This document shows positions 12,333 to 49,466 of a stretch of DNA of 64,000 nucleotides, one piece after another. The first letter of the stretch is position 1. Each line of letters opens with the position of its first letter. Both the position numbers and the translations under genes were made by a program. The notes beneath the pieces are model-generated. The model searched no databases. It was not told the origin of the DNA and was given only the letters and a program-made list of their open reading frames with translations. Origin of the DNA: Burkholderia sp. BCC0506 (GTDB taxonomy: Bacteria; Pseudomonadota; Gammaproteobacteria; Burkholderiales; Burkholderiaceae); assembly GCF_902833145.1 (NCBI RefSeq), contig NZ_CADFEN010000010.1:1-64000 (forward strand), read 5' to 3'.

Positions 12333-12365
12333 AATGGTCCGTACCATTCGACACGTGCGTGCCAC
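12333..12365 (+). promoter_or_regulatory. Composite element 1: AATGGTCCGTACCATT plus PHO-like repeat, upstream of gspI
   Basis: A perfect palindrome AATGGT-CCGT-ACCATT (12333-12348) runs into a degenerate PHO-box-like direct repeat TCGACAC-GTGC-GTGCCAC (12348-12365, 11-bp period). It lies about 110 bp before the gspI start and matches elements at 13599 and 20546. The remainder of 12172-12458 shows no gene. Confidence 0.6.
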
Positions 12366-12458
12366 ACGTCGCGCTTAACGTCCGAGCACGGTGTCCGTCG
12401 CGCCGGCGATGCGGCCTGCGCCGCGGTTCGCGCGCCGGACGCCGACTCATCGACACGA

Positions 12459-12902
12459 ATGATGCAGGTCATGTGCGACGACAGAACCGACCATTACCGC
12501 CATGCGCGCGGCGGACCGCGCACGGCGCGGGCGCCGGAACGGGGATTCACGTTGATCGAGGTGCTGATCGCGCTGGCGATCGTGGCCGTGGCGCTGGGCG
12601 CGGTGATGCGCGCGATCGGCGCGCTCGCGTCGGACACCGACATGGCGCGCATGCGCCTGCTCGCGTTGTGGAGCGCCGACAACGCGCTCGGCGAGATCCG
12701 TATCGCGTCGAGCTGGCCGTCCGTCGGTACGAACACGTTCGCGTGCCCGCAGGGCCGCTACCGGTTCGTGTGTCGCCAGTCGGTGGCCGCGCTGCCGAGC
12801 CCGCTCGTGCGACGCGTGACGGTGAGCGTCTATCCGTCGACGTCGAGCCGCAACGTGCTCGCCGAAGTCGTCACGGTGATCCAGGATGAAGCGCGCCGCT
12901 GA
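12459..12902 (+). CDS. gspI: Type II secretion minor pseudopilin GspI
   Basis: The protein has 147 residues from ATG 12459. ATGs at 12462 and 12471 are alternatives. An unusually long leader (about 32 residues, Arg/His-rich) precedes the prepilin peptidase site RG-FTLIEVLIALAIVAVALG, where PilD-type peptidase cleaves after Gly and methylates Phe. Glu at +5 is present. The downstream T2SSI domain is typical (LRLLALWSADNALGEIRIAS-like). GspI joins J and K in the pseudopilus tip. Its 3' end overlaps gspJ by 17 bp. Under the composite element at 12333 it likely belongs to the phosphate-regulated set. Confidence 0.88.
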   Translation: MMQVMCDDRTDHYRHARGGPRTARAPERGFTLIEVLIALAIVAVALGAVMRAIGALASDTDMARMRLLALWSADNALGEIRIASSWPSVGTNTFACPQGRYRFVCRQSVAALPSPLVRRVTVSVYPSTSSRNVLAEVVTVIQDEARR

Positions 12903-13548
12903 ACCGCGCGCGATGGCGCGCGCGCGCGGCTTCACGCTGATCGAGATGCTGGTCGCGATCGCGCTGCTCGCCGTGATCGCGCTGCTGTCGTGGCGCGGCC
13001 TCGACGCGACGATTCGCGGGCGCGACGATATCGCGTCGAATCTGGCGCAAACGCGTCTGCTCGGCCGCTATTTCTCCCAGTTGCAGTTCGACCTGACCAA
13101 CCTCGTGACGGCCGACGAGGTGTTCGGGCCGCCGCTGCGCGTCCGGCCGAACGAACTCGTGATGGTGCGCCATCTCGGCGTCGGGAGCGGGCCGACGCAG
13201 ATGCAGGTCGTGCGCTACCAGCTCAAGGGGCGCGAGCTCGTGCGCAGCGCGTCGCAGCCGCTCGCGTCGCTGGCCGACGTGGAGGACGCGCTGCAGCACA
13301 TGGACGCATTCGCGCGCGTGGTGGTCAGCAACGATGCGCGGACGATGCAGCTCGCGGTGTGGATTCCGCCGGATGGATGGACGACGAGCCAGACCGCGAT
13401 CGAGCAGAGCTACGCGCGGTTTCTCGCGCAGCACGGTGTCAGCAACATCACGTCGCTCGGCATGCCGCTGCCGCGCGGCGTGCGCTTCGCGGTCACGATG
13501 GGCGCGCCGGCAGTGGAATACGTGCGGACGATCCCGATCGGCCAGTGA
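12886..13548 (+). CDS. gspJ: Type II secretion minor pseudopilin GspJ
   Basis: This 220-residue pseudopilin has cleavage site RG-FTLIEMLVAIALLAVIALLS at residues 14-35 and Glu at +5. The globular part has the GspJ pattern (RGLDATIRGRDDI, FSQLQFDLTNLV, then PLPRGVRFAVTM near the C terminus). Length is normal (about 200-220). It overlaps gspI and so is translationally coupled. No gspG, gspH or gspK follows; they lie elsewhere in this window or, for gspG, outside it. Confidence 0.9.
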   Translation: MKRAAEPRAMARARGFTLIEMLVAIALLAVIALLSWRGLDATIRGRDDIASNLAQTRLLGRYFSQLQFDLTNLVTADEVFGPPLRVRPNELVMVRHLGVGSGPTQMQVVRYQLKGRELVRSASQPLASLADVEDALQHMDAFARVVVSNDARTMQLAVWIPPDGWTTSQTAIEQSYARFLAQHGVSNITSLGMPLPRGVRFAVTMGAPAVEYVRTIPIGQ

Positions 13549-13598
13549 CGGCCGTGCGGGCTGCGCCCGGCCGGCAATGCGGTCTGTCCCCCGGACAA

Positions 13599-13631
13599 AA
13601 TGGTCCGTAACTTTCGTCATACATCTGTTAT
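13599..13631 (+). promoter_or_regulatory. Composite element 2 upstream of the TPR-glycosyltransferase operon; best PHO-box match
   Basis: AATGGTCCGTAAC (13599-13611) is followed by TCGTCAT-ACAT-CTGTTAT (13614-13631). This matches the E. coli PHO-box consensus CTGTCAT-N4-CTGTCAT at nearly all core positions, including the GTCAT/GTTAT cores 11 bp apart. It lies about 97 bp before the GTG start of the first TPR gene. Confidence 0.7.
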
Positions 13632-13727
13632 TGCCCGTCCGTTAGTCTCGTGACGAGCATGACCGCCCGCGACCGGTTCCATTGAACCGGGCCAGCGGCG
13701 GCATCGGCAAACGGGAAGGGGGCGAAC

Positions 13728-15950
13728 GTGACGGTCGAGCACCGGCATGATGCATACGCGATCGCGTCGGGACGCGACGCGCGCGGTCAATGGCAATCGG
13801 CGGCGATCCTGAGTCGTGCGCAAAACCGGCACGGCGCCGGACGGTTCGACGACGCGGCGCGCGACTATCTCGCCGTGCTCGAGAAGGAGCCGGACAATCC
13901 CCTGGCATTGCACCTGTACGGCGTGCTGCAGTTCCAGCGCGGCGCGGCCGACGACGCCGAAGCGTTGCTGCGCCAGTCGATCGCAATCGCACCCGGCACG
14001 CGCGCGCTGTCGGATCTCGGCGCGATCGCCGGCGAGCGCGGCCGCGTCGGCGAGGCGCTCGAGCATTTCGCGGCCGCGCTGCGCACGACGCCGGACGACG
14101 TGCAGACACTCGTGCGTCGCGGCAATACGCTGCTCGGATTGCGCCGCTACGACGACGCGCTCGCGTCGTTCGACCGCGCGCTCGCGGTGTCGCCGCTGGT
14201 GCTCGACGCGCTCTGCAATCGCGGCAGCGCGCTGCGTGCGCTGCGCCGCTTCGACGATGCACTCGATACCTACGATCGCGCGCTGATGGTCGACCCGCGT
14301 TCGTTCGAATCGTGGTTCAACCGCGGCCTCGTCCTGCGCGAACTGCAGCGGCCGGCCGATGCGCTGCAGTGTTTCGAGCGCGCCGATGCGATCCGGCCCG
14401 GCCTGGCCGCGATCACGGCCGAACGCGGCCGCACGCTGATCGATCTCGATCGGCCGGGCGAGGCACTCGATGCGTTCAACGAGGCGATCGCGGCCGATCC
14501 CGCGCGGATCGACGTGCTCTACAACAGCGCGGTCGCGCTCGAACGGCTCGGCCGGGCGGACGAAGCGCTCGCTCGCTGCGAACGCGTGCTGGCGCTCGAT
14601 CCGGATCATGTCCGCGCCCACGCGAGCCGCGGCAACGCGCTGCTGCAGCTCAAGCGCCACGACGACGCGCTGGCGGCCTATACGCGTGCGCTGGCGCTCG
14701 ATCCGCGCTCGGTGGAGACGTTGTGCAACCGCGGCACCGCGTTGCGTTACCTGAAGCGTTACGACGACGCACTGGCGAGCTACGACGCGGCGCTTGCGCG
14801 CGACGCACGATTCGCCGAGGCCTGGACCAATCGCAGCAGCGTGTTGCAGGACCTGCACCGCTACGACGAAGCGATGGCGTCGCTCGACCGTGCGCTCGCG
14901 CTGCGCCCCGATCACGCGACGAACTGGCTCAACCGCGGCAACCTGCATTTCGAAACGGCGCGCCCGGACGACGCGCTCGCCGCGTACGACCGCGCGATCG
15001 CGCTGCAGCCCGACTACGCCGAAGCACATTTCGCGCGTGCGTCGCTGTATCTGATCGAAGGCGATTTCGCGCGCGGCTGGCCAGAGTACGAATGGCGGCT
15101 GCGCGACGCGCAGCTCGCACGGCACTACCGGCCGTTCACGCAGCCGACGTGGCAGGGCGACACGCCGCTCGACGGTCGGACGGTGCTGATCCATGCGGAA
15201 CAAGGGTTCGGCGATACGCTGCAGTTCTGCCGCTATGTGCCGCTGGTGGCCGCGCGCGGCGCACGGGTCGTGTTCGAGGTGCAGCCGCAATTGCGCGCGC
15301 TGATGGCATCGCTGCCCGGGTCGGTCGACGTGATCGCACGCGGCGAACCGCTGCCGGCGTTCGACTGCCAGACGCCGCTGCTGAGCCTGCCGCATGCGTT
15401 TCGCACCGACGAAGCCACGATTCCGCATGCCGGCGCCTATCTGCATGCCGACCCGCAGCGCACGCGCCAGTGGGAAGCGCTGCTCGGCGAACGGCGCCGG
15501 CCGCGGATCGGGCTTGCCTGGGCCGGCAATCCGGAGCACCGCAACGATCACAACCGGTCGATCGACTTCGCGCGGCTCGCGCCGCTGTTCGATCTCGACG
15601 TCGACTGGATCAGCCTGCAAAAGCCCGTGCGCGAACGCGACGCGGCGCGGCTCGCGCAGGCGCCGGTGCTGCGCGTCGACGACGAACTCGGCGACTTCGC
15701 GGACACGGCCGCGCTGATCGGCGCGCTGGATCTCGTGATCGCGGTCGATTCCGCCGTCGCGCATCTGGCGGGCGCGCTGGGCCACGCGGTGTGGGTGCTG
15801 CTGCCCGAGCCGGCGGAGTGGCGCTGGATGCGGACCCGCGGCGACAGCCCGTGGTATCCGTCCGCGCGGCTGTTCCGGCAGGCGGCGCCGGGCGACTGGA
15901 CGAGCGCGATCGACGCGGTGCGCGCCGTGCTCGCGCCGATGACACGTTAG
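13728..15950 (+). CDS. TPR protein with GT9/GT41-like glycosyltransferase C-terminal domain (copy 1)
   Basis: This 740-residue protein starts at GTG 13728 behind a strong GGAAGGGGG site. Residues about 25-430 form roughly a dozen tandem tetratricopeptide repeats (recurring DDALASFDRALAxxP-like units). From about 445 a glycosyltransferase-like domain begins: GWPEYEWRLRD near 448, LIHAEQGFGDTLQFCRYVPL near 486, RPRIGLAWAGNPEHRNDHNRS near 590 and AVDSAVAHLAGALG near 672. This TPR-GT architecture is found beside large bacterial exoproteins and resembles cytoplasmic O-/N-glycosylating enzymes. The acceptor and sugar are unknown. It leads a three-gene tandem of paralogues ending 171 bp before tpsA, so modification of TpsA is the natural hypothesis. 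Confidence 0.85.
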   Translation: MTVEHRHDAYAIASGRDARGQWQSAAILSRAQNRHGAGRFDDAARDYLAVLEKEPDNPLALHLYGVLQFQRGAADDAEALLRQSIAIAPGTRALSDLGAIAGERGRVGEALEHFAAALRTTPDDVQTLVRRGNTLLGLRRYDDALASFDRALAVSPLVLDALCNRGSALRALRRFDDALDTYDRALMVDPRSFESWFNRGLVLRELQRPADALQCFERADAIRPGLAAITAERGRTLIDLDRPGEALDAFNEAIAADPARIDVLYNSAVALERLGRADEALARCERVLALDPDHVRAHASRGNALLQLKRHDDALAAYTRALALDPRSVETLCNRGTALRYLKRYDDALASYDAALARDARFAEAWTNRSSVLQDLHRYDEAMASLDRALALRPDHATNWLNRGNLHFETARPDDALAAYDRAIALQPDYAEAHFARASLYLIEGDFARGWPEYEWRLRDAQLARHYRPFTQPTWQGDTPLDGRTVLIHAEQGFGDTLQFCRYVPLVAARGARVVFEVQPQLRALMASLPGSVDVIARGEPLPAFDCQTPLLSLPHAFRTDEATIPHAGAYLHADPQRTRQWEALLGERRRPRIGLAWAGNPEHRNDHNRSIDFARLAPLFDLDVDWISLQKPVRERDAARLAQAPVLRVDDELGDFADTAALIGALDLVIAVDSAVAHLAGALGHAVWVLLPEPAEWRWMRTRGDSPWYPSARLFRQAAPGDWTSAIDAVRAVLAPMTR

Positions 15951-15955
15951 ACACG

Positions 15956-15976
15956 ACACGCGACACGCGACACGCG
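15956..15976. repeat. Short tandem repeat, 3 x 7 bp, between TPR genes 1 and 2
   Basis: ACACGCG occurs three times in a row, flanked by partial copies on both sides, in the 56-bp spacer between the first and second TPR genes. Slippage could alter the spacing between genes. It is short and may be neutral. Confidence 0.6.
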
Positions 15977-16006
15977 ATACGAACAGCGACAAGTGAGGGC
16001 CACACG

Positions 16007-18250: not shown

Positions 18251-20514
18251 GTGCGCGCCGCGAGGCTGCGCCGCTGGCGGGCGCCTTACCGGGCGCCGCG
18301 GCCGTGCCGCTGCAAGCGGTGCTCGCCGATGCGCTGCGCCAGGCGCGCACGCGCCTCGAACGGCGCGACTTCGCGGGGGCCGGACGGCTCTACGAAGGCG
18401 TGCTCGCGATGGCGCCCGACCATGTCGAGGCGCTGCACCTGCTGGGCCTCGTGTATCTGCAGCTTGGCGATCCCGTACGGGCCGAGCCGCTGATCGCGCG
18501 CTCGATGACGTTCGGATTGACCCAGCCGTGGAATCTGGCGAACCACGCGGCGGCGCTGACCGGTGTGGGCCGTCATCGCGACGCGCTCGCACTCGCCGAT
18601 CGCGCACTCGCGGCCGATCCGGACCATGCGCCGTCGCATGCGGCACGCGGCGATGCGCTGCTTGCGCTCGGCCAATACGACGCGGCGCTGGCGGCCTACG
18701 ACCGGGCGCTCGTGCGCGAACCGGCGCACGCAACGGCGTGGCGCAAGCGCGGCGAGACGTTGCGCCGGCTCGAGCGGCCCGCCGATGCGCTGATCAGCAT
18801 CGAGCGCGCGTTGCGGATCGACCCCAACGATGCGGCCGCGAACACCGAGCGCGGCCATGCGCTGCGCGCGCTCGGCCACCGCGAGCAGGCGCTGCACAGC
18901 TATCGGCTCGCGATGGTCGTGCGCGGCAAGACGCCCGAGCTCGTTTACGCGTGCGGCGTCGTGATGACCGAACTGGGCCGCCCGGCCGACGCGCTCGCGT
19001 GTCTCGACGAAGGGCTCGCGCGGCGGCCGAAGGACGAGCAGTTGCTGTACGCGAGTTGCGTCGCGCTGGATCTGCTGCACGCCCGCGACGAATTGCTGAA
19101 GCGCTGCGACCGCCTGCTCGCGCTGAATCGCGGCAACGTCGCGGCGTGGGTCGGGCGCGGCAATGCGTTGCTCGGGCTCGAGCGTCACGCGGAAGCCGCC
19201 GACGCCTACGCGCAAGCACTGGTACGCAATCCGGACGATATCGACGCGCGCCGCAACCGCGCGGCCGCGCTGCGTGCGCTCGGCCGGTTCGACGACGCGC
19301 TCGCCGATTACGACGCGGCGCTGGCGCTGACGGGCCCGCATGCGGAACTGCATTACAACCGCGCGCTCGCGCTGCAGCAGCTCGGCCGCTACGACGATGC
19401 GCTCGCGAGCCACGCGGCGGCCGCCGCCGCGCCGGCGGACACGGCGCAGGCGTTGTTCACGCGTGCGCTCGCCCACCAGCACCTCGGCGACGACGACGCG
19501 GCGCTGACCGATTACGCCGAAGCATGCAGGCGCGATCCGAACCACGGTGCCGCGCGCCGCTCCGAGGCGTTCTGCCGGCTGCTGACGGGCGATTTCGACG
19601 CGGGCTGGCGGCAGCACGAGGCGCGCTGGGAGGCGGCCGACGTGATGCTGCACCGGCGTCATGCGGACCGGCCGCGATGGACCGGCGACGAACCGCTCGC
19701 GGGCCGCACGCTGCTGCTGCATGCGGAACAGGGTTACGGCGACACGCTGCAGTTCTGCCGCTACGCGAACCTGGCGCACGACGCGGGCGCGACCGTGATC
19801 GTCGAGGCGCCGGCCGCGCTCGGCGAGCTGCTCGGCACGCTGCGCGGCGTGAGCCGGGTCGTCACGGAAGGGCAGCCGATGCCGGCGTTCGACCTGCAAT
19901 GTCCGCTGATGAGCCTGCCGTACGCGTTCCGCACGACGCTCGATACGGTGCCGGCCGACGTGCCGTACCTGCGCGCCGATGCGTCGCGGCGTGCCGCGTG
20001 GGTGCAGCGTATCGATGCGGCAGCGCCGCCAGGCCGGCTGCGAGTCGGGCTCGCGTGGTCCGGCAACCCGCGCCACGCGAACGACGAGAACCGCTCGATA
20101 CCGTTCGCCGTGCTCGCGCCGCTCGTCGGGTGCGATGCGATCGACGCGACATTCGTGAGCCTGCAGCCGCAGGTTCGCGCGCGCGATGCCGACGCGTTCG
20201 CTGCGAGCGGCGTGCTGTCGTTCGCGGACGCGTTGCAGGATTTCGCCGAAACGGCGGCGCTGGTCGACACGCTGGATCTCGTGATCAGCGTCGACACGTC
20301 GGTCGCGCATCTGGCCGGCGCGCTCGGGCGGCCCGTCTGGGTGCTGCTGCCGCGCGTGCCGGACTGGCGCTGGTTGCTCGGCCGCGACGACAGCCCGTGG
20401 TACCCGTGCGCGACGCTGTTCCGGCAGACGCGGCCCGGAGACTGGCCGGCCGTCATCGGCCGCGTGGTCGACGCGCTCGGCACGACGCGCGGCGGCGTGA
20501 GCGGCCTTCCATGA
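18247..20514 (+). CDS. TPR protein with GT9/GT41-like glycosyltransferase C-terminal domain (copy 3)
   Basis: The protein has 755 residues from ATG 18247, overlapping the stop of copy 2 by 4 bp. The N-terminal TPR solenoid (about 25-445) is followed by the same catalytic-type module: GWRQHEARWEAADV near 456, LLHAEQGYGDTLQFCRYANL near 494, RVGLAWSGNPRHANDENRS near 600 and SVDTSVAHLAGALGRPVWVL near 683. The acceptor-side residues differ between the three copies, for example QHEARW here against EYEWRW. The paralogues may therefore not be redundant. The gene ends 171 bp before tpsA with no terminator that I can see. A PHO-like element for tpsA lies in that spacer. Confidence 0.85.
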   Translation: MSARREAAPLAGALPGAAAVPLQAVLADALRQARTRLERRDFAGAGRLYEGVLAMAPDHVEALHLLGLVYLQLGDPVRAEPLIARSMTFGLTQPWNLANHAAALTGVGRHRDALALADRALAADPDHAPSHAARGDALLALGQYDAALAAYDRALVREPAHATAWRKRGETLRRLERPADALISIERALRIDPNDAAANTERGHALRALGHREQALHSYRLAMVVRGKTPELVYACGVVMTELGRPADALACLDEGLARRPKDEQLLYASCVALDLLHARDELLKRCDRLLALNRGNVAAWVGRGNALLGLERHAEAADAYAQALVRNPDDIDARRNRAAALRALGRFDDALADYDAALALTGPHAELHYNRALALQQLGRYDDALASHAAAAAAPADTAQALFTRALAHQHLGDDDAALTDYAEACRRDPNHGAARRSEAFCRLLTGDFDAGWRQHEARWEAADVMLHRRHADRPRWTGDEPLAGRTLLLHAEQGYGDTLQFCRYANLAHDAGATVIVEAPAALGELLGTLRGVSRVVTEGQPMPAFDLQCPLMSLPYAFRTTLDTVPADVPYLRADASRRAAWVQRIDAAAPPGRLRVGLAWSGNPRHANDENRSIPFAVLAPLVGCDAIDATFVSLQPQVRARDADAFAASGVLSFADALQDFAETAALVDTLDLVISVDTSVAHLAGALGRPVWVLLPRVPDWRWLLGRDDSPWYPCATLFRQTRPGDWPAVIGRVVDALGTTRGGVSGLP

Positions 20515-20545
20515 CAAAAGCTACGGACCTTTTCACGGCGGCCCG

Positions 20546-20578
20546 AATGGTCCGTAACAGTCGCCACGTCGCTGCCAT
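20546..20578 (+). promoter_or_regulatory. Composite element 3 upstream of tpsA
   Basis: AATGGTCCGTAAC (20546-20558) is followed by TCGCCAC-GTCG-CTGCCAT (20561-20578), a PHO-like direct repeat with 11-bp period. It is 108 bp before the tpsA ATG. A second GGTCCGTA core lies in opposite orientation at 20522-20529. Confidence 0.6.
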
Positions 20579-20685
20579 GCGCGCTTCGTATGGTCTTCGG
20601 ATTCCAGCGGCCCGTTTCGGGCGCAACGACATGCGCGGTGCCGGCCCGGCGCCGCGTGCAAATTCCTAGCATCGGAGTGGCAAGA

Positions 20686-29600: not shown

Positions 29601-32600
29601 GGCGAGCCTGACGGACGGGTTCTTCCAGATCGCGAATCCGCTCGGTGGTGGCGGGACGATTCCGGTGCCGGCGTTGTCGACATTAGGTGCGGCGCAGTCG
29701 CTTTACTCCACGCCGTCCGGAGCTTACGCGTATTTGGGGCCAGGGTTTGGCCTTGACTACTTCGGCGCTAACGGATTCGGATCCAATCAAAATCTGGCTT
29801 TTGGGCCTGGTCAGCCGACTGGCGGAACCCCGGAAGAAATAGCGGAGTACTATGCATTGTATACGGCGTATGCAAATTTCTTAACTGCACCCAATCCGAC
29901 GATTACTTCGATGGTCAGCAGTTGGAATGCGAATTATGACAACATCAACATTATCAGCAGTTTTCGCGGTACCGGGAAAGTCGTGCCAATTTTTACGGCT
30001 CCGATTGCACCATCTGCTTCAGAGCAAGCGGTTAATCCCAGTTCATATCTGATTTATCTGAATCAGTACAAGACGTATCTTTTGACGGCGGCTCAATACT
30101 GGAAAAATAATGGCGGTAACTTTGTATTGGTGGACACGGTTACCCCGCCGGCTGTTCAACCGGTCGCAGTGATCACAACATCGACCATCAGCTTGCCGGC
30201 CGTCACCGACAATACACCGGCGCCGGTTGCTACCGCGGCGAATCCCATCCCGCTTCAATCCGCTTCATTGGCCGGCGGGACGAGTGCTTCGTTCCGGGTA
30301 GTTGCAGGCGCGGATCTCGATAGCACGAATCCGCTGACCGTAACGGCCGCGTCGGCTTCAACGAAATCGACGGGCAGCGGAAACGTGACTTTCGACGGTC
30401 ACACCGCTTACGTGGATGCCAACGGTTTGGCATTACTTGCACCGACAGCGATCCGCACCGGTACCGGATCGATCGATGTAGCGTCCGCGAAAGACATCGC
30501 ACTGTTCGATGCAGGTTCAACGCCTGCGAACGATCCGACCGTGATGGTTGTCCCCGGTGTCATTTACACGGCGGGCGCTCCGGCCGCCGGAATGCCTGCG
30601 CAGGGCAGCGATGTCGCGATCGTGCATCCCTCATGGACAGGCAAGCAGGACATTCTGGTGACGCCGGCCGTGAACCCGGATTCCGCCGGTGACATCACGA
30701 TTCATGCACAAGGGAACATCGTCGGTGCCGAGCGCCTGACGGATGCGACGGGAGCCGTGACCGGGACGCAAGGCAGCGACATCAGTCAATTCTGGTGGCA
30801 GTGGATGCAGGTCGGCAACCCGACGGGAACAGTCGGTGCAACTTTTCCCGTGACGCAGACCGTTCGAACGTCGATCAATTTCGGTGCTTTCGATCAAGGC
30901 GTGCTGAGTTCGGGCGGCAACATATCCGTGTCGGCTGGCGGGAACATTTCCGACCTGTCCGTATCGTTGCCGACGACGTGGTATTTGACCGCGGCCAATA
31001 CGGATCATCCGACGGTGAATACCGTTGGAGGCGGCAACCTGACGGTACACGCCGGCGGCGACATTCTGAGCGGCGGCTATTTCGTCGCGAAGGGAAGTGG
31101 TTCGATCACCGCAGGCGGCAAGATCGGCTCGGACATCGCGGTGCCGTCGACGCTCGTCGGACAACCGCCGGTTGTGCTGGACACGCTGCTTGCGACACAG
31201 GACGGTGTTTTCGATGCGAGCGCCCGTCAAGGCGCGAGCATCGGACGTGTGTTGAACCCGTCGTACGCGCAAAGTAGCGCACTGTTGAACGCCTATGGTC
31301 AATACGCGGATGCGCAAGGCTATTCGCCGCATTCGGCTGTCAATATCGTGTCGACGACAGGCGATGTGGCGATCGGGACGCTGAACGGGATCGACATGAT
31401 TGGGGGCGGCGCTTCCGATATCTCTCCCGGACGCAACGACATGTCGTTCGTGTTGCCGGCCTCGCTGAACCTGACCGCGTTCACCGGTGGTATCACGGTG
31501 GCGTCCAGCGGAGAACTCACTCCATCTCCGTCGGGCAATCTGAGCTTGATCGCGGACCAGTCGATTAACATTTCCAGCGTCAATGGCCTGGCGAGCAGTG
31601 CGACAGCGGGTGCCGGTCCGGTTTTCGGAATGCTCGATACAGATCCTTCGTCGATGCCGTCACCGACGAACCCTCGTGTCAACGTTCCGCTTTTGACCGA
31701 GAAGACGCTTGCCGCTCATGCCTCCGGCGCGCTGCATGGGGACGACACCGTGCCAGCGCGCATCTATAGCCTGAATGGTGACATCGTCGACGGGGTGCTG
31801 CAGACGACCGGCTTTTACGACAAACTTGTTCCCATTTCGATCGACAAGCCGGCGTTCATCCAGGCCGGGCAAGACATCGTCAATCTCGCTTTCCAGGGGC
31901 AAAACCTCCGAAAGTCCGATGTGACTCGCATCGTGGCCGGGCGCGACCTCTACGATACGGCGTTCGCGGGGACCGTGAACGCTGTCGTTCCTGCGCTGGT
32001 GCTGGGTGGTCCCGGCACGTTCGATATCGAGGCGGGCCGGAATATCGGGCCGTTGACGAACCAGAGTCAGATCAAGAGTGCCAGCGTTCTGACCGGCATC
32101 GATGCGATCGGCAATGCAAACAATCCGAACCTGCCGCATGAGAGTGCGAACATTAATGTCTTGTTCGGCGTGGGGCCGGGTATCGACACATCGACGTTCG
32201 TCTCGACCTATATCGATCCGGCGAGTTCCGTGGCAGGGGTATCGAGCACGGCGCCCGCCCTCATCGCGTTCGTGCAGCAGTACGAGGCGGGCCAAGTGGT
32301 CGATACAGGGCTGGTGAAGGATCAGCCGACGATCGCACCGCTGAGCGCGGCGCAAGCGTGGTCGAAGTTCGAGATGCTTCCGCAGTATGTCCAGCAGCTT
32401 TTTGCCGAGCAGGTGCTGTTCAACGTGCTGGCCCGGGTTGGGGAGGACTACAACAATCCCGCGAGCCCGTATTTCCAGAAATACGCCAGAGGCTATCAGG
32501 CGCTCAATACGCTGTTCCCCGCTTCGCTGGGCTACACGGCGAACAGTCTCGGCGGCGGCAGTAATGGTGCGAACAAACTGGTCGACACCGGCGATCTGGA

Positions 32601-33459
32601 CATGCGCAGCACGACCATCCAGACGCAGCAGGGTGGCAACGTGTCGATTTTCGGCCCGGGGGGGCAGGCGTTGGTGGGGAGCACGTCCGCGCCGCCGCAG
32701 ATCGTCGATGAGCGAGGAAACGTGATCGTGGGCCCCGGATCGATGGGTATCCTGACGCTTGAGAAGGGCGACGTGAATATCTTCACGGATCGCAGTGTGC
32801 TGCTCGCGCAGAGCCGGATCTTCACCGAGCAGGGCGGCGACATGACGATCTGGAGCTCGAACGGCGACATCAACGCCGGCAAGGGCGCGAAGTCGTCGGC
32901 CGATACGCCCGCGCCGCAGTATCTGTGCGATGCGAACCACTATTGCACGGTCGATGCGCGCGGGCAGGTGACCGGTGCCGGCATCGCGACGCTGCAGAGC
33001 GTGCCGGGCGTGCCGCCGGGCACGATCAACTTGATTGCGCCGCGCGGTACGGTCGATGCGGGCGATGCCGGGATTCGCGCGGGCAACCTGAACGTCGCAG
33101 CGCTCCGTGTCGTGAACGCGGACAACATTCAGGTGACGGGCAAGGCGACCGGTATCCCGCTCATGCAGGCGGTGAATACGGGGGCGTTGACGGCCGCAAG
33201 CGCGGCTGCGTCGGCCGCGACGCAAGTTGCGCAGGACATTGCGAAGAACAGCGCGTCTGGTGGCGCGGCTCGGCGCTGGACGATTTCGGTGCAGGTCGAA
33301 GGATTTGGCGATGCGGGCGGAGAGGGTGCGAAGAAGCACAAGCAGCAGGTCGGCTACGATTCGTCGAATGCGGTGTCGGTACTCGGATTCGGTCAGGTGG
33401 GGCCGACGCAGCGTGCGACGTTGACTGCGGATGAGCGTGGGCGGTTAGGCAAAATCTGA
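20686..33459 (+). CDS. Giant TpsA-family exoprotein (filamentous-haemagglutinin type, DUF3739-like)
   Basis: The protein has 4257 residues from ATG 20686, with GGAGTGG at 20674-20680 deciding the start. A long signal peptide (about 1-45, cleavage near AHAHA) is followed by a TPS secretion domain (about 100-400). That domain contains NAVLTWETMNVGRQTTLNFD near 173 and GAVYVINRNGVLFGAGSQVN near 229, the family's N-x-N-G motif. A very long beta-helix of GxxxLxGGTxx-type repeats follows. A DUF3739-like C-terminal region (about 3700-4257) ends in a Lys/Gln-rich tail with no membrane anchor. TpsB (49467-51119) should export it. By size and context it resembles P. aeruginosa PdtA, a phosphate-regulated TpsA. 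Residues about 3006-3199 are encoded by visibly lower-GC DNA and are rich in Tyr/Asn. An intrinsic terminator follows at once. Confidence 0.92.
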   Translation: MAARARTERQLRATASRSVLKSELNPLYRAVVLMLAAGVSAHAHAAGITNLGQATARVSGGGAGGGAGTPGVPNLGVSPQQALQASQPSIRNLGYAAHAIAAQIAAQQNAAAAAAKLPSTVPNGLAPGGLQVAAGASGDTNNPVLWFNANAPTQNTDANGHVNVDVKQTGQNAVLTWETMNVGRQTTLNFDQSGGTQTNGANNWAVLNRINDPSGRPSQILGNITAQGAVYVINRNGVLFGAGSQVNVHSLVASSLDVLNMNNYNQAMVNRVPVVTDSTLAQDAAGIVASNKQFLSLPAGTTGGLAYPESGSSTGVTGSSYVPNEVLGLGNQVNLTSASQYQPWGDVTIEQGASITTHANGNVSDGGFVMIAAPNVTNAGHIKATDGQVVLAAGVGVSLRPNALSHANPQVLLPELSGQIVLLGANGQTTDITPAGTLTNTGIVEAARGHVNLLGSRVAQNGVVGVTTSVNVPGTITISTVDEYSSNNPTGAAYLGLGKVTGGASQGDGGNDAHRAGLLSFGPDSVTTVMPDGNGQTTPSTPGATFTPGSIGMTAGSVWFQGGSLIEAPGSTVSVAALTPSTSGATAPAGQTAVPGRIYLDSGATIDVSGLANVELPISQTLVTVDRIGQNELADSPLLRNGFLFGLKNVVFDSTLTGTRSDGVQWVGSPILNLSGYVNLIPRTVDQLLTNGGTITLSGNEVMTATGSSMNLNGGYVHYDGGMVSTTRLVDANGAIVPIGQASPYDTYVGIAGQFTESHPRWGVTKSWYNPLQAGGIAVPGSIVGGVYEPDYIVGGNAGTLDVYATQSTVLDGEVSAQAFGGARQMQGNSLPTGGTFNLGADPKLGGTALVDLTSNSRETGSGTVGLVTLQNSAPLLDEIAPGFSIDTPLDQKTLQALPATDPRNVLANTVVPVATLNNGGFANLNVTEDKAGGKGIVVSEGTQLALQPGGSVSLSSAPLGADVNVAGKLIVPSGTISIASGGSIVVGPRGAISAAGQWVNNDVQAAPGTKPGNSQFINGGSIALSTGEQTVGNSSDGITDATGSILLRPGSVLDVSSGGELLANGQLLMQNGVPVGRGGNISLSTYAAPVTRQFGHTGDSGPVMPTTQPTNGTIALGGTILGDGFSGGGTLALQALGFRIGGDPKDAAPWDVYLPERFFAQQGFGKYVLNAYYDATVAPGATVALTHRDLIPDVPALVQTATGANVSTSGLTTSGRLDDYHRQPTSLVLTGGNYTSWITSANTAPSYPGVTGAVTLSSGASIHADAGAAVGFGSPTQVTVLGSIVAPGGAITLSADSGGTFAQTGQYGIFVPSDSRSVWLGSAATLDVSGTALANPLAAPVKNGAATVVPDTGKVLPGGSVTLSSDAGYVVAQAGSKIDVSGASTHFDQLQPNGTYASQPVWSDAGSITLSAGYGLFADATLAAHAGGERARGGTLTILPQPNRGVGGETALVIRQSGELTPVALAAGQRFTAAIDRTTGLPIGQPTGIIQFAADRLERSGIANLVLGSTAPLAPPIAFAGNVDLSLPESVTLNSGRIAAIGMGQLTTLLSAPSTALSTLLAQSPLHSAGATVDIDAPYVALNGPTLTSQSPSPSFASTTVSDARLNVNASFIDLNNQLQLINFGQANFTSSGDIRVGSTNASYSSSSALVAPGILYTAGDLTFKAADLYPSTGSTFIVDAVGPNDPSTGKRVPTTITFASNGPSSTPLSAGGTLLVDATDIVQGGTLRAPSGSLVFGVGDPTGSTAQAQFNGLPLVATDSVRFANGSVTSVSNDGAIIPYGTTVDGVEWQFNPLAGNNTVADLAAPPAKYVGVNAGNVALDKGATIDLSGGGDLQAAEWVPGTGGTRDVLSQYNTSYASGKGGTAVPVNAGAGNVYAIVPGAQSPVAAYDPTFAQTLQPSTNGNGTATTATATLGIGQAGMSDGVGKAVYLSGVPGLAAGYYTLLPGKYATVPGAYRITVSNTAGNLVPGASQVLQDGTVVTAGYFADALTGGRSATPTLFNVQSNSVWQQYSQYTLTGANSFFAAQAAKKGAVTPPLPLDGGQLVLAATKALTLGATLNAAAGTGGAPAEVDIASQDIQITGNGSAGLAGYLQIAANDLDSLTAGSLLIGGTRAATTRGVAITPIANSVVVSNDTSTVLKGPEILLVTKADGSGTDSNAANGLRVDAGASIAAQGDYPAAKDQPLAIAGDGALLRVSNGAMAPLTRTGGTGTGLLTVGAGATLAGGQALMLDSSGDLKVDPSAVLSARAITADGSAITFTNASGGAAASLPGFVIDPAGLAQFANAQQVTLRSYGAIGFVGDVNATFGNGVDLSAGTFTSDGGHVTLNAQQIAFTNETGAPNGVAAQGNGTLTVNAKEIDFGTGTKTLSGFGAAAMNATGGIVGQGTGTFDFGTLPVTLGAPVYFADTGSASTVKTAGTLTLNGASGTAPTKTPVGGVWRFIGGTIADNGATIAAPAGNVSLEATSGNLTIGSGSTVSSAGVSKQFFDVTQYAPAGAITLLADAGTVDVQSGSTLDFSGASGGGAAGNLTLSAPQQLVNLNGALKGSAASGYAGGSLSLDTGGAADLDALAKTLASSGVNGAIEIRTKTGNLTLSPGNTLSARTVSLTADGGAGNAADTANGHVNVFGTIDASGKAGGEIDLYGRNGVDLEGTLLARGADPNQRGGKVDIGTSAVFDPTVANPYNATYGYENVARANAGAITLGANALIDVSGGTAGGLSGGTVNFRAPLLADGGVNVNPPAAFNAGKGIVGSRATTLEAYAVWSTTDATTHAQHFDGIIDPAGWYDGNGHLVAGTFAAQGTSGVTFSFTPNASGDGGGTLTNNSTGAQVVLTGSAGDQAQLRNGVASIGFDGMNGTYFAPGAANADHQTFYGYQSGGATATTPGTLMGFVQHGLDALVDPFAGKNVANVHVVPGIELDNPGPAINGGDIQVLTNWNLGAGTSPTDLAFRFNGEAPVVTLRAENNVKVKASLTDGFFQIANPLGGGGTIPVPALSTLGAAQSLYSTPSGAYAYLGPGFGLDYFGANGFGSNQNLAFGPGQPTGGTPEEIAEYYALYTAYANFLTAPNPTITSMVSSWNANYDNINIISSFRGTGKVVPIFTAPIAPSASEQAVNPSSYLIYLNQYKTYLLTAAQYWKNNGGNFVLVDTVTPPAVQPVAVITTSTISLPAVTDNTPAPVATAANPIPLQSASLAGGTSASFRVVAGADLDSTNPLTVTAASASTKSTGSGNVTFDGHTAYVDANGLALLAPTAIRTGTGSIDVASAKDIALFDAGSTPANDPTVMVVPGVIYTAGAPAAGMPAQGSDVAIVHPSWTGKQDILVTPAVNPDSAGDITIHAQGNIVGAERLTDATGAVTGTQGSDISQFWWQWMQVGNPTGTVGATFPVTQTVRTSINFGAFDQGVLSSGGNISVSAGGNISDLSVSLPTTWYLTAANTDHPTVNTVGGGNLTVHAGGDILSGGYFVAKGSGSITAGGKIGSDIAVPSTLVGQPPVVLDTLLATQDGVFDASARQGASIGRVLNPSYAQSSALLNAYGQYADAQGYSPHSAVNIVSTTGDVAIGTLNGIDMIGGGASDISPGRNDMSFVLPASLNLTAFTGGITVASSGELTPSPSGNLSLIADQSINISSVNGLASSATAGAGPVFGMLDTDPSSMPSPTNPRVNVPLLTEKTLAAHASGALHGDDTVPARIYSLNGDIVDGVLQTTGFYDKLVPISIDKPAFIQAGQDIVNLAFQGQNLRKSDVTRIVAGRDLYDTAFAGTVNAVVPALVLGGPGTFDIEAGRNIGPLTNQSQIKSASVLTGIDAIGNANNPNLPHESANINVLFGVGPGIDTSTFVSTYIDPASSVAGVSSTAPALIAFVQQYEAGQVVDTGLVKDQPTIAPLSAAQAWSKFEMLPQYVQQLFAEQVLFNVLARVGEDYNNPASPYFQKYARGYQALNTLFPASLGYTANSLGGGSNGANKLVDTGDLDMRSTTIQTQQGGNVSIFGPGGQALVGSTSAPPQIVDERGNVIVGPGSMGILTLEKGDVNIFTDRSVLLAQSRIFTEQGGDMTIWSSNGDINAGKGAKSSADTPAPQYLCDANHYCTVDARGQVTGAGIATLQSVPGVPPGTINLIAPRGTVDAGDAGIRAGNLNVAALRVVNADNIQVTGKATGIPLMQAVNTGALTAASAAASAATQVAQDIAKNSASGGAARRWTISVQVEGFGDAGGEGAKKHKQQVGYDSSNAVSVLGFGQVGPTQRATLTADERGRLGKI

Positions 33460-33474
33460 CGAGTGGTGAAGTTG

Positions 33475-33511
33475 ACGCGAGCTGTCGGTTCGATCGGTAG
33501 CTCGCGTTTTT
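33475..33511 (+). terminator. Rho-independent terminator after tpsA
   Basis: ACGCGAGCT (33475-33483) and AGCTCGCGT (33499-33507) form a 9-bp stem followed by a run of five T. It separates tpsA from the convergent pstS-like gene. Confidence 0.85.
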
Positions 33512-33580
33512 ATATTGTGTTGTGAAGACAGTTTCGTGATGCTGGCGACGCGAAAGCCGGCACTAACTGGACGAGTAAAC

Positions 33581-33614
33581 AAAAAACCGCGCCCTTGACG
33601 ATCCAGGGGCGCGG
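33581..33614 (-). terminator. Rho-independent terminator of the first pstS-like gene
   Basis: CCGCGCCC (33587-33594) and GGGCGCGG (33607-33614) form an 8-bp stem. The A-run 33581-33586 gives the U-tract on the minus strand, 37 bp past the stop of the gene at 33651-34934. Confidence 0.85.
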
Positions 33615-33650
33615 CAGAATTAACGGCGGAGCATCCGCCGTCAGATGGAC

Positions 33651-34934
33651 TTAACGACCGACCACCGTACCCGTACAGACGCTCGCGTTGCCGATGTCGA
33701 GGTTGTAGCCGCTCGCGTTGCTCAGGAAGTCGTTCGAAATGGCCGTCTGGAAGTTCGATGGAATCGTGCCGAAACCGTTGCCGTGAACGATTGATGCGAA
33801 GCTGGCGTTCGTGTAGTGGTCGCTCAGGAAGTCATGCAGCGCCGTCTTGACGTTGGGATCCTTGTAGCACTGGCTCAGGACGATCTGGCTCGTGCCGACA
33901 ACCGGATAGCCAGCGGCCGGATTGCCGATGTTCGGCACCCAGGCTACCGGGTCGGAAGCGGCAGTCTTATTGTTCGGCGCCGCAGCGGTACCGAGAGCCG
34001 TTGCTGCATTCGCGTACGTCGGCGCGTAGTACTTTCCGTCGATCGTGTTCACGAGGCTTGCCACCGACAGTTGCCCCGCGCCCGACGCTGTCGCGATCGT
34101 GCTCAACGGAGCCAGGTACGTGTTCGTATAATCCGGGCTCAGGTACGCGACCGCAGCGCCCGAGGATGACAAAAGGGCGCTGCGCACATCGGTTGCGCCT
34201 ACGAAATTGGCTGGGACGCCCTTCGGGAACAAAGCCGCCAACGATCCCGTCTCGGCGAATGTGACGCCCGAAGCGGTATTGGACGGCGTACAGACGGCTG
34301 CCAGGTGCCGGGACAACCGCCTGTCTTCAGGACCGAAGGGAGGATAGATAACCGTGATCGGAGCGTTCAGGGCGTAGGCCAAACCTGTTTCGGGGTTGGT
34401 CACCTGGTTCCAGTCCGCGAGCTTGCCTGAGAAGATGCCGCAGAGATCATCGTCGTTCAGCGCGATGCTGTGTGCCTGATTCGGCGTCGTTTGTGGTGTC
34501 GTCGTGCTGGTCACGGCTGGGCCGTTGACGAGCGAAATCGCGATTGGTATAACGATGTACGGAATCTGGATCAGCGGGCCGTTAGTCGTGCCGAGCCCAG
34601 CCAGGTACGACGCGATTCCGGCTGTCGACAGAGATACGTCGCTGTTCCCGAAATCGACCGTGCCTGTGAGATTCGCGCTGAGTCTTGCCGGCTGATTGTT
34701 TAGGAACGCGATCTGGCCGGCGATCTGGCCGGCCGAATAGTACGTGAACGTTGCTTCGGCGGTACCGAACAGGCCGATTTCGGTCGTGGTGTTGCCGATC
34801 GCACCGATCATCGGCGCGACGAGTATCGAACCACCGCCTTGAACGAGCGGGCTCGCAGCCACCGCGGCCGTGGCGCTCATGCCCGAAATGAGAAGAGCGA
34901 GAACTTGACAGATCTTGCGCTTGCTAAATTTCAT
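33651..34934 (-). CDS. PstS/DING-like secreted phosphate-binding-type protein with altered ligand loop
   Basis: The protein has 427 residues from ATG 34932-34934 (MKFSKRKICQVLALL), with AAGGAA upstream. A signal peptide (about 1-28) leads to a mature start near SPLVQGGGSILVAP, recalling the DING/PstS N terminus. The two-lobed binding-protein fold is readable across the chain: IGLFGTAEATFTYYSAGQIA, ALNDDDLCGIFSGKLADWNQ, then a C-terminal CTGTVVGR. It is a close paralogue of the upstream gene at 35141. However, where that protein has SDSSGTTELL, the classical phosphate-contact loop, this one reads PPFGPEDRRL. Phosphate binding may be lost or changed. Pseudomonas DING-type proteins are Hxc type II substrates, which fits the gsp genes nearby. 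The 207-bp gap upstream contains the terminator of the paralogue. Confidence 0.88.
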   Translation of the reverse strand: MKFSKRKICQVLALLISGMSATAAVAASPLVQGGGSILVAPMIGAIGNTTTEIGLFGTAEATFTYYSAGQIAGQIAFLNNQPARLSANLTGTVDFGNSDVSLSTAGIASYLAGLGTTNGPLIQIPYIVIPIAISLVNGPAVTSTTTPQTTPNQAHSIALNDDDLCGIFSGKLADWNQVTNPETGLAYALNAPITVIYPPFGPEDRRLSRHLAAVCTPSNTASGVTFAETGSLAALFPKGVPANFVGATDVRSALLSSSGAAVAYLSPDYTNTYLAPLSTIATASGAGQLSVASLVNTIDGKYYAPTYANAATALGTAAAPNNKTAASDPVAWVPNIGNPAAGYPVVGTSQIVLSQCYKDPNVKTALHDFLSDHYTNASFASIVHGNGFGTIPSNFQTAISNDFLSNASGYNLDIGNASVCTGTVVGR

Positions 34935-35074
34935 GAGAATTTCCTTGAGTGGAGACAAATGTGAATCCTGCTGACACGGCCGAATTGCATTGGTTTATGC
35001 GATAAATCGAAGACCCAAGGTAAATTCACATCAAAGCGAACTTCCGGCCAATTCAGGTATGCGACTGACGATTG

Positions 35075-35103
35075 AAAAAAATGCACCCTTGGTTTCCCAA
35101 GGG
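35075..35103 (-). terminator. Rho-independent terminator of the second pstS-like gene
   Basis: CCCTTGG (35086-35092), loop TTTC, CCAAGGG (35097-35103), with an A-run at 35075-35081 forming the U-tract on the minus strand. It shows that the two pstS-like genes can be transcribed separately. Confidence 0.8.
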
Positions 35104-35140
35104 CGCAGTCGTGTCGGTCAGAAATCAGCCCGAAGATCGC

Positions 35141-36457
35141 TTAACGACCGACCACCGTACCCGTACAGACGCTCGCGTTCCCGATGTCGAGATTGAACGT
35201 GCTCGCGTTGCTCAGGAAGTCGTTCGAGATGGCCGTCTGGTAGTTCGACGGAACCGTGTCGAAGCCGTTGCCGTGAACGATCGACGCGAAGCTGGCGCTC
35301 GTGTAGTGGCTGTTCAGGAAGTCATGCACGGCCGTCTTGACGTTCGAATCGGCGTAGCACTGGCTCAGGATGATCTGGCTGGTGCCGGAAACCGGATAGC
35401 CCGATGCCGGCTTGCCCGCGTTGGGCACCCAGTTTGCCTGGTTGGAGGCGGTCAGCTTGGTCGTGGGCGGTGCGAACCCACTCAGCGCCGTCGATGCGTT
35501 CGCGTACGTCGGTGCATAGTACGTGCCGTTCGTCGCGTTCCGGAGGCTCGCCACCGGCAGTTGCGTTGCGCTGGCCGACGTCGTGACCGTGCTCTGCGGC
35601 GCGAGGTACGTGTTCGTGTAATCCGGGCTCAGATAGGCGACTGCGGCCGTCGTGGTCGACGTCGTCGTGGCGTACGTCACCAGCTGGTTGCGCACGCCGC
35701 CGCTACCCGAAGCCCCGACGAAATGCGAGCCCGACGGGAAGCCGGTCGGGAACGACGCCGTGAAGGTCGTCGAATCGGCGAACGTGACGCCCGGGGCGGT
35801 GTTGGCGGTCGTGCAGACGGCGACCAGGTGGCGGGTCAGCAGTTCGGTCGTGCCGCTGCTGTCCGAACGGTAGACGACGGTGATCGGCGCGTTCAGCGTA
35901 TAGACCGAGCCCGTTTCCGGATTGGTGACCTGGTTCCAGTTCGTCAGCTTGCCCGAGAACACGCCGCACAGATCGTCGTCGTTCAACGCGATGCTGTGCG
36001 CTTGACCCGGCGTCGTTTGCGGCGTCGTGGTGCTCGTCACGGCCGGGCCGTTGACGACCGGAATCGTGATCGGCGTGACGATGTACGGGATCTGGATCAG
36101 CGGGCCGTTGGTCGCGCCGAGGCCGGCCTTGTACGACGTGAGCTGGGCGGTCGACAGCGCCGCATCGCTGTTCGCGAAGTGAACCGTGCCCGTGACCGTC
36201 GAGCCGAAGTACGTCGGCTGGTTGTTCAGGAATGCGTTCTGGCCGGCGCCCGAGCCGACCGAGTAATACGTGAACGAGCCTTCGGCGGTGCCGAACAAGC
36301 CGATTTCGGTCGCGGTGTTGCCGATCGCGCCGATGGTCGGAGCGACGAGCGACGAGCCGCCGCCTTGAACGTTCGGCGAGGCCATCGCGGCCGCCGCGCC
36401 CAGACCGGAAACAACGAGAGCGAGGACTTGACAGATCTTGCGCTTGCTGGATTTCAT
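35141..36457 (-). CDS. PstS/DING-like secreted phosphate-binding protein
   Basis: The protein has 438 residues from ATG 36455-36457, with AAGGAAATTTCTC upstream. A Sec signal peptide (about 1-26, cleavage near AMASP) gives a mature start SPNVQGGGSSLVAPTIGAIG. The phosphate-contact elements are intact: GGGSSLVAP at the N terminus, ALNDDDLCGVFSGKLTNWNQ, and YRSDSSGTTELLTRHLVAVC. Family members bind phosphate in the periplasm or, in DING/LapA-type cases, are exported by a phosphate-regulated type II system. No PstC/A/B permease genes are nearby, which argues for an exoprotein role. A composite PHO-like element in the correct orientation lies at 36559-36591. The 3' end shares about 70 nearly identical bases with the paralogue at 33651. 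Confidence 0.9.
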   Translation of the reverse strand: MKSSKRKICQVLALVVSGLGAAAAMASPNVQGGGSSLVAPTIGAIGNTATEIGLFGTAEGSFTYYSVGSGAGQNAFLNNQPTYFGSTVTGTVHFANSDAALSTAQLTSYKAGLGATNGPLIQIPYIVTPITIPVVNGPAVTSTTTPQTTPGQAHSIALNDDDLCGVFSGKLTNWNQVTNPETGSVYTLNAPITVVYRSDSSGTTELLTRHLVAVCTTANTAPGVTFADSTTFTASFPTGFPSGSHFVGASGSGGVRNQLVTYATTTSTTTAAVAYLSPDYTNTYLAPQSTVTTSASATQLPVASLRNATNGTYYAPTYANASTALSGFAPPTTKLTASNQANWVPNAGKPASGYPVSGTSQIILSQCYADSNVKTAVHDFLNSHYTSASFASIVHGNGFDTVPSNYQTAISNDFLSNASTFNLDIGNASVCTGTVVGR

Positions 36458-36558
36458 GAGAAATTTCCTTGAACGAAGATAAACGGGAACCCCTGCTGTT
36501 GCGGTTGGAATGCTTATGGACCGCCGGGTAAATGTAGGTGGAAATCCGAATGACGCGT

Positions 36559-36591
36559 GTGAATTTTTCATAACGAATGGTGCGTAACATT
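36559..36591 (-). promoter_or_regulatory. Composite element 4 upstream of the pstS-like gene
   Basis: Read on the minus strand: GTTACGCACCAT, then TCGTTAT-GAAA-AATTCAC (PHO-like repeat, 36559-36576). The upstream part, AATGGTGCGTAACATT on the plus strand at 36576-36591, is the same near-palindrome as elements 1-3. It lies about 102 bp before the start of the gene at 36457. Confidence 0.6.
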
Positions 36592-36782
36592 TTTATCGGG
36601 AAAGTCATTGCGTTATTCGAATTGATAAAGTGCGGGGCGGCGCGTCATTCGGCACAAGCCGGAGTGTCCAGATACTGGGATTTAGCCGAAATCGTTCGGT
36701 GGGTCGTGCGCGGAAGCCCGCGTGAGGCTTGATGGAAGCTGTTGATGCAGCACGCGGGCCCGCGCAGTGCTATCCCAACTTC

Positions 36783-36815
36783 AAGGCGGTTTCGTGGCGG
36801 ATGTTACGGAACATT
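36783..36815 (-). promoter_or_regulatory. Composite element 5 in the pstS-gspF intergenic region
   Basis: On the minus strand: AATGTTCCGTAACAT (36801-36815), followed by CCGCCAC-GAAA-CCGCCTT. The ATGTT-N4-AACAT dyad is perfect. The 663-bp gap 36458-37120 is AT-richer than its surroundings and shows no gene, only this element, element 4 and the PHO-like site at 37006. Which start it serves is unclear (326 bp from the pstS-like start, 305 bp from gspF). Confidence 0.5.
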
Positions 36816-37005
36816 CTGCACGTCGATGAATATCTTCCGTTTTGATGTATTTATCTCGCTTTTGGCGAGAATCTGTAAATGGAAGGTTGGTGGCGGGTGC
36901 GGGTATTTAAAATAACGACGATTAATTGGTTGGATAAGATTGAAATCGTTTTTACGTTATAAGAATAACGACCCGGGTAATAAGACCCGCCAAAAAAGGT
37001 AGCCC

Positions 37006-37028
37006 AACATCCGTCACAAATCTGCGCT
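37006..37028 (+). promoter_or_regulatory. PHO-box-like site upstream of gspF
   Basis: AACAT then CCGTCAC-AAAT-CTGCGCT (37011-37028). The stretch CCGTCACAAATCTG differs from the PHO consensus only at the second base. It is 93 bp before the gspF start. The AACATCCG lead-in also matches element 5. Confidence 0.6.
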
Positions 37029-37120
37029 GGTTCGCTCCGTAGTCTTCCCCCGGCGACTCTGTCCGGCAAGCTGCGCGACGTCATCGGAAGCAGTCGCGCA
37101 CGTGACAGGAGAACATCGGC

Positions 37121-39466: not shown

Positions 39467-39565
39467 AGTGCCCGCGCACAATCGGTCGTTCGCTTGCGAC
39501 GGAGCCGCTCACGGGGGCGTGTGCTTCGGCACGCGGCGTGCAACTCCACTTCCGTCCAGGGATTC

Positions 39566-40312: not shown

Positions 40313-40318
40313 GCCGCC

Positions 40319-40867: not shown

Positions 40868-40878
40868 GCATCCGGACG

Positions 40879-43411: not shown

Positions 43412-43569
43412 GCCGGTGCCTCGTGCATCGATTGCGGGCGGACCGTCGCGACGGCGCGTCGTCGCGCGGATCGGGTCGCCCACGATGCTGCGGGGTCGAT
43501 CGCGCGCCGTCAAGTGCGAATGCGGTTGCGGCGGCCCGTGCGATCGATCCCGCAGCGTGGGGTCGCCCG

Positions 43570-49315: not shown

Positions 49316-49466
49316 GTTCGGATCGACGGTGTAAAAAGCATTGCGTGGCTCATGATAAGGATGGCGAATCAATCGTCATCAAAGTGAAACAGGTAGCTGA
49401 TAACGGAGCGGGCGGCGGGTTCACGACAGCTTCGCCGCGGTCCGGAACAACAAAGGGGAATGGCGC

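Follow-up and report, generated by a model that had tools for sequence, protein, structure and literature searches.

Burkholderia sp. BCC0506 repeats one composite element ahead of a set of secretion genes, which raises the question of whether these elements are the switches of a known regulon and what reads their upstream half. The DNA analysed, referred to as the window, comprises 64,000 nt (positions 1-64,000 of contig NZ_CADFEN010000010.1, assembly GCF_902833145.1; whole genome 7.29 Mb). Each element consists of a 16-bp core, directly followed by a tandem of two 7-mers of the type TCGnCAY-N4-sTGyCAY. We consider it probable that the elements are promoters of a PUMA3-type regulon, at which PhoB would occupy the half-sites and a partner encoded in the cluster would occupy the core, both inputs being needed. 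Six similar switches joining a likely PHO site to a second site suggest that expression of the genes may require the agreement of two regulators.

A sequence-only reading, made without database searches, had listed five elements, and all five were recovered with the positions and sequence given there (Table 1). The 22-base composite AATGKTNCGYAMCNNTCGNYAY, allowing up to two mismatches, occurs in the window at exactly these five places, compared to a mean of 0.03 and a maximum of 1 in 100 dinucleotide shuffles. A sixth element, located before gspF, was absent from that list; 27 of the 28 genus genomes aligned carry it, with closer copies in L112, L119 and L120. Upstream of tpsA there is additionally an inverted partial copy, which reads ATGACAAAAGCTACGGACC on the plus strand and has ATGACAAAAG in common with phdA-type promoters of the Pseudomonas-like family described below. 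The distance of 97-110 bp to a gene start that had been proposed for four elements is corrected to 92-107 bp for the chosen starts (the start codons of gspI and the TpsA-like gene are our choice), and the distal PstS element lies approximately 326 bp from the PstS-like gene, behind a second element. The two PstS elements are about 190 bp apart (36590-36780, minus strand), and the spacer carries an inverted repeat, GCCCGCGTG...CACGCGGGC. An Rfam search of 36300-37200 at E 0.1 gave no match.

Genome-wide, the exact core AATGKTNCGYAMC was obtained in seven rows representing six distinct sites, five of which lie in the cluster (one read on both strands), the only exact core outside the cluster being at C16:145122, within an open reading frame (ORF) of 994 aa. 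The exact core is thus not scattered through coding DNA at background frequency, the outcome that the sequence-only reading had named as refuting. Cores with one mismatch were found at 91 places compared to 58 for the reversed control, and the longer composite pattern with up to three mismatches at 135 places compared to 71, including at least 11 places with two mismatches outside the cluster among the matches listed. Since these loose matches are near control levels, only near-exact copies are informative. Loose matches scattered across the genome within twofold of the controls might suggest that the elements arose by chance or are a non-regulatory repeat, but this explanation is already contradicted by a fixed architecture ahead of homologous genes in about 30 genomes and is extremely improbable. 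PHO-box-like places number 37 in the genome compared to 11 for the reversed pattern. The core was absent from all 30 of these 37 that were fetched, a set which includes overlaps (L267-L269, L287/L288) and need not consist of real PHO boxes; they scored −16.6 to −49.8, whereas the five elements, from which the matrix was in part made, reached +24 to +29. This agrees with the earlier statement that the upstream half is not part of a PHO consensus.

The locus is of the PUMA3 type, a known regulatory system. A small VreA, an extracytoplasmic function (ECF) sigma factor and a FecR-type anti-sigma factor are encoded in one operon (39494-41874), the VreA domain matches remaining below cut-off, and genes for a type II secretion system (T2SS), two-partner secretion (TPS) and alkaline-phosphatase-like proteins are linked to it. 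Named relatives of the sigma factor at 92-98% belong to Burkholderia; where the species is named, we take the close ones to be members of the cepacia complex. B. vietnamiensis PUMA3 homologues of the same layout are described in the available part of Llamas et al. 2009 (PMC2729926), and according to the available part of PMC4971064, VreI requires PhoB in P. aeruginosa. Because the locus is PUMA3-type and VreI needs PhoB, the downstream half of the element is best read as the PHO box of a PhoB and VreI regulon. It consists of two 7-bp direct repeats 4 bp apart, the second being weak in elements 5 and 6. The proposal that this half matches PHO boxes is supported by the 11-bp period, by a conserved −10-like block and by a sigma family that needs PhoB; it very probably is a PHO box, with PhoB binding predicted.

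Promoter alignments were built for gspI, the first TPR gene (TPR1), tpsA and PstS from 27, 28, 20 and 28 genus genomes, respectively, tpsA being limited to the 20 genomes in which the N-terminus matched in full. Rows G398, G409 and G417 were removed before counting, and G396 additionally from the promoter footprint alignments and the gspF count. Numbering the first A of AATG as 0, four conserved blocks were observed, namely the core (−1 to 15), the PHO half-sites (15-21 and 26-32) and a fourth block (38-48), with mostly weaker conservation between them. Mean conservation of the fourth block was 0.95 for gspI, 0.97 for TPR1, 0.96 for tpsA and 0.81 for PstS. The sequence-only reading had overlooked a −10-like block 43-49 bp downstream of the element's first base, in which the hexamer starts 17-18 bp past the start of the second half-site. 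In E. coli PHO promoters, the −10 hexamer is located at the same 17-18 bp. NANNNT was found at the hexamer position in 88 of 148 genus-set elements, the remainder being mainly the two PstS elements. Four of the six elements in the window combine this spacing with a TANNNT hexamer, as would be expected if they were ordinary promoters of PhoB and a housekeeping sigma factor, with the core serving as an extra PhoB contact or a global regulator site and the ECF sigma uninvolved. We regard such an arrangement as unlikely, as the core is missing from the other PHO-box-like places, is out of 11-bp phase with the half-sites and is clustered in sigma-plus genomes only; moreover, loss of VreR affects hxc and lapA in P. 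aeruginosa, both being up in a vreR mutant (PMC7035377, available part).

The core tracks the presence of the local sigma factor, which supports a connection between the two. At E 1e-20, the sigma gene was detected in 34 of the 65 genus genomes. Within the 36 of these 65 that were compared (those listed up to G403), at least two cores within 40 kb were found in 18/18 sigma-plus and 0/18 sigma-minus genomes; as the genus genomes are related, these are not 36 independent cases, and the comparison is support rather than a probability. Sigma-plus genomes contained 63 distinct core sites within 35 kb of the sigma gene and 38 elsewhere. Among 80 named sigma loci, the Burkholderia matrix scored above 14 in 27 (null maximum 10.4), comprising 26 of the 28 closest (L098-L125 without L108 and L117) and L128, and all 27 derive from Burkholderia, Paraburkholderia, Trinickia or Caballeronia. 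Twelve of the scoring loci lie outside the matrix-making genomes (L112, L113, L115, L116, L118-L125) and scored above 14 in every case, four of them near 18-21 or 33. As to additional VreI relatives, G416 (C210, C150) carries three (83, 58 and 57%) and G398:C2 two (59 and 57%); of the named loci around the 57-58% copies, L128 has a single composite element, and nothing in L126 scores above 14. The same matrix found nothing above 14 in L129-L177; the Variovorax loci in this range carry the box in other letters, and the Burkholderia matrix is therefore blind to other lineages.

In the lapA-like promoters of Variovorax (L135, L142, L147, L150-L153), a TTCSSGAG-type box occurs two to three times, with one copy joined to the PHO box. 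There, CCGA starts 19 bp ahead of the second half-site in 7/7 promoters, and one or two extra copies per promoter lie upstream without a following TGTCAY (7/7). A third lineage, reached through OprD, is called Pseudomonas-like from its vreAIR-T2SS-lapA-tpsA order. The first VreI-like places in this family (nine loci) were dropped because no T2SS, PstS or TpsA was nearby. A PstS/LapA-like gene was found in 16 loci, and the lapA box was detected by pattern in 11 of them (CTCCCGAG or ACCCGAG in ten, CCATGGGA in G498) and by matrix in three more. It stands in a fixed register with TTTTCCN-N4-CTGTCAY or a close variant, and CCGA falls in the same column as in Variovorax, a register resting on pattern and matrix matches in the lapA promoter set. 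At the same position, the remaining two loci, G557 and G585, show cores of the type AATGTTACGTAACTT and GTGTTATGTAATTT, their register being judged by eye. Nine Pseudomonas-like loci contain an extra copy, ACCCGAGAATCTTTTT, upstream of lapA without TGTCAY after it. The layout is thus conserved between the lineages, whereas the letters of the box differ.

Promoters of VreI type offer a closer look at what may read the core. In the available part of PMC4971064, the pdtA promoter is given a −35 box at −34 to −30, GC at −30/−29, a −10 box at −11 to −5 and PHO repeats at −56 to −50 and −45 to −40; a VreI-PhoB-DNA complex was obtained at pdtA and none at the vreA promoter, which bears a PHO box, and this agrees with the sigma contacting a box next to the PHO box. 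At 12 of 15 places in the Pseudomonas-like loci, CNGTC follows GACAAAAGTTCGG (or a close variant), 21 bp from TTCGG (10/10 before PhdA-like ORFs, 1/3 before tpsA and 1/2 others). Reversed CCGAA stands 8 bp ahead of TTGTCAY in 14/14 plus-strand phdA/pdtA-type places, which is the register of the core. The spacing before tpsA in G558 would agree with the pdtA boxes as published in that part of PMC4971064. We infer that the core is read most likely by the VreI-like sigma factor or else by a Phd-type protein encoded in the cluster.

Several findings weigh against PhoB and a VreI-type partner acting together in this way, in addition to the relatedness of the genus genomes and the fact that the agreement in G558 is with published positions of P. 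aeruginosa boxes and not with the sequence itself. The hexamers of gspI, TPR1, tpsA and gspF are TANNNT, as for a housekeeping sigma factor, and not CNGTC, and the two PstS elements fit neither pattern well. CNGTC at VreI distance from the core, in either direction, was found in 0/6 window elements (reversed pst1 reads AAGTC), none of which shows the phdA-type arrangement of PHO box, TTCGG, 16 bp and CNGTC; the inverted tpsA copy lacks it too, having CCGAA where CNGTC is expected. About 27 bp separate the end of the core from the −10 hexamer, and as it is located upstream of the PHO box, the core cannot be the −35 box of that hexamer. Furthermore, CCG of the Burkholderia core is one base off CCGA elsewhere, A at 10 and the centre being in agreement. 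Since CNGTC is missing at VreI distance and the PHO box stands between the core and the −10 hexamer, the role of the core is not that of a plain −35 box. The earlier suggestion of a contact between the core and the local ECF sigma is favoured by the tracking of the sigma gene and by the reversed box on the presumed VreI −35, whereas the distance from the −10-like block speaks against it. BfmR (TACAA-N3-GATACA) and CzcR (GAAAC-N6-GTAAT), motifs given in the available part of PMC8025907, were rejected as core readers, as they misfit by eye.

The other candidate reader is a Phd-type protein. The core, which had been described as a near-perfect dyad in several copies and turned out to be only near-palindromic, might be the operator of a dedicated dimeric regulator of the cluster acting beside PhoB as a third input, namely the transposase-Phd fusion or, elsewhere, a small PhdA-like protein. 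The near-palindromic Burkholderia core agrees with this proposal, as do the extra core copies without TGTCAY in seven Variovorax promoters and nine Pseudomonas-like loci. The fusion is present in 26 of 80 sigma loci, all within L098-L125 (Burkholderia group) and none in L126-L177, and PF02604 was matched by 11/11 aligned members at E 0.01 or better, the window's own match being under cut-off (Table 1). The fusion looks domesticated. PhdA-like ORFs 12-20 kb past the tpsA match were detected in 12/12 extended Pseudomonas-like loci, weakly (E 8e-5 to 0.16) and with a profile built from 11 Burkholderia-group rows only. All six lapA-bearing Variovorax genomes searched have a Phd-type ORF 15-16 kb downstream of vreI (17.7-18.9 bits, cut-off 29.8), and none was found at that place in L166, a seventh Variovorax with no lapA near the sigma gene. 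The Phd-type protein is thus the other DNA-binding-type protein found in all three box-bearing lineages, but its presence also follows that of the entire hxc/lapA/tps module, and the link may therefore be indirect. Moreover, L117 has room for the fusion and gave no match (the stretch of L107 ends too early), and in Variovorax (L303-L308) the low-scoring Phd-domain match directly follows a second ECF-sigma-like ORF, which ends about 100-130 bp before it. The dyad test (5 of 8 pairs) on 19 loci of L129-L177 gave one place, in L136, and no Variovorax core. A PDB search with the Phd-type tail returned no relative, only one chance match at E 0.64, and a Phd search of the window's own genome gave five matches, one of them at 44983-45114 under cut-off. 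Binding of a Phd-type protein to the core is putative, and we consider this reading possible but not probable. A further variant, which seems doubtful to us, is that the factor on the core differs from the sigma of the polymerase that transcribes the gene, being either the ECF sigma as a DNA-bound upstream partner of PhoB, without reading the promoter itself, or a domesticated IS4 transposase-Phd fusion as a third activator. If true, this would be a three-input switch whose geometry was kept while its letters changed across three bacterial lineages.

With PhoB and a cluster-encoded partner as the preferred reading, the following scheme is predicted, including PhoB binding, the core reader, the start sites and the sigma factor used at the −10 position. 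Under phosphate starvation, PhoB would bind the tandem half-sites. The PHO box may replace the −35 box in most of the six elements, placing the −10 hexamer at its distance from the second half-site. The core would be a separate box, placed directly against the PHO box at a constant register, which might mark the promoters as members of the VreAIR cluster; in the Pseudomonas-like family, the box in matching register, reversed, would fall where the VreI −35 of pdtA was published. The partner (in the most likely case the VreI-like sigma, or else the Phd-type protein) may dock on the core beside PhoB, so that transcription would need both low phosphate and the VreA/VreR signal. In the Burkholderia group, this secretion cluster would accordingly be expected to be under phosphate control. 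How VreI and PhoB work together on DNA was examined for two promoters from a single species, and the available part of that paper (PMC4971064) does not describe the box. The core box, its register in three lineages, its absence elsewhere, the sixth element and the −10 block appear to be additions, as they were not found in the accessible portions of the open-access literature searched. Numerous natural variants of this fixed arrangement, each with the box, are now at hand from three lineages, so that the identity of the core reader becomes a simple binding question.

Besides the features in Table 1, the TPR region (13728-20514, plus strand) contains two frames with weak glycosyltransferase family 9 matches beside the giant TpsA, which they might glycosylate. 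A single long ORF at 49460-52990 (plus strand) combines DUF2341, a LamG-like domain and MotA/ExbB.

Table 1. Elements, hexamers and genes of the PUMA3-type locus in the window
Feature	Position	Strand	Basis or remark
Composite element 1, before gspI	12333..12365	+	Core 12333-12348; PHO half-sites 12348-12354 and 12359-12365
Composite element 2, before first TPR gene	13599..13631	+	Pattern, alignments, shuffle control
Composite element 3, before tpsA	20546..20578	+	Pattern, alignments, shuffle control
Composite element 4, proximal to PstS/LapA-like gene	36559..36591	-	Pattern, alignments, shuffle control
Composite element 5, distal to PstS/LapA-like gene	36783..36815	-	Second half-site weak
Composite element 6, before gspF	36996..37028	+	Left half of core degenerate; second half-site weak
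Inverted partial copy before tpsA	20511..20532	-	Core and one PHO half-site; pattern and alignment
−10-like hexamer TAACGT (gspI)	12376..12381	+	96-100% per position, 27 rows
−10-like hexamer TAGTCT (first TPR gene)	13643..13648	+	96-100% per position, 28 rows
−10-like hexamer TATGGT (tpsA)	20589..20594	+	Alignment; fifth base variable (TATGGT/TATGTT)
−10-like hexamer TAGTCT (gspF promoter)	37040..37045	+	Alignment
gspI (T2SS)	12459..12902	+	PF02501
TPR-repeat protein	13728..15950	+	
Giant TpsA-like exoprotein	20686..33459	+	Name from relatives in PUMA3 clusters
Second PstS/LapA-like paralogue	33651..34934	-	
PstS-like protein, LapA-like	35141..36457	-	LapA-like by gene context
gspF	37121..38338	+	
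VreA-like protein	39494..40312	+	Weak FecA N-terminal and TonB C-terminal matches, both under cut-off; operon position
VreI-like ECF sigma factor	40319..40867	+	
VreR-like FecR anti-sigma factor	40864..41874	+	
IS4-transposase-like protein with C-terminal Phd/YefM-type domain	43423..45204	+	PF02604, 25 bits (cut-off 29.8); candidate core reader

Among known systems, Phd/YefM antitoxin operators are short palindromic sites, a feature shared by the core together with a Phd-type gene in the cluster; to our knowledge, their sequences are unrelated to it. With promoters in which a PHO box replaces the −35 box, the elements share two 7-mers at 11-bp period and the distance of the −10 hexamer from the start of the second, and in comparison to an ordinary PHO box they add the 16-bp core directly upstream. 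The closest comparison is the PUMA3 system of P. aeruginosa with its pdtA and phdA promoters. Shared with it are vreAIR, a T2SS, a lapA-like gene, tpsA, a Phd-type gene, the PHO box and, as published, a sigma factor that needs PhoB, as well as a box abutting the PHO box, for which the register was seen in the Pseudomonas-like relative and not in P. aeruginosa itself. In phdA-type promoters the box lies between the PHO box and a −10 of the type CNGTC, whereas in the window it precedes a forward PHO box and most −10 hexamers read TANNNT; the letters of the core, AATGKTnCGTAMC, are of Burkholderia type, unlike those of the P. aeruginosa system.

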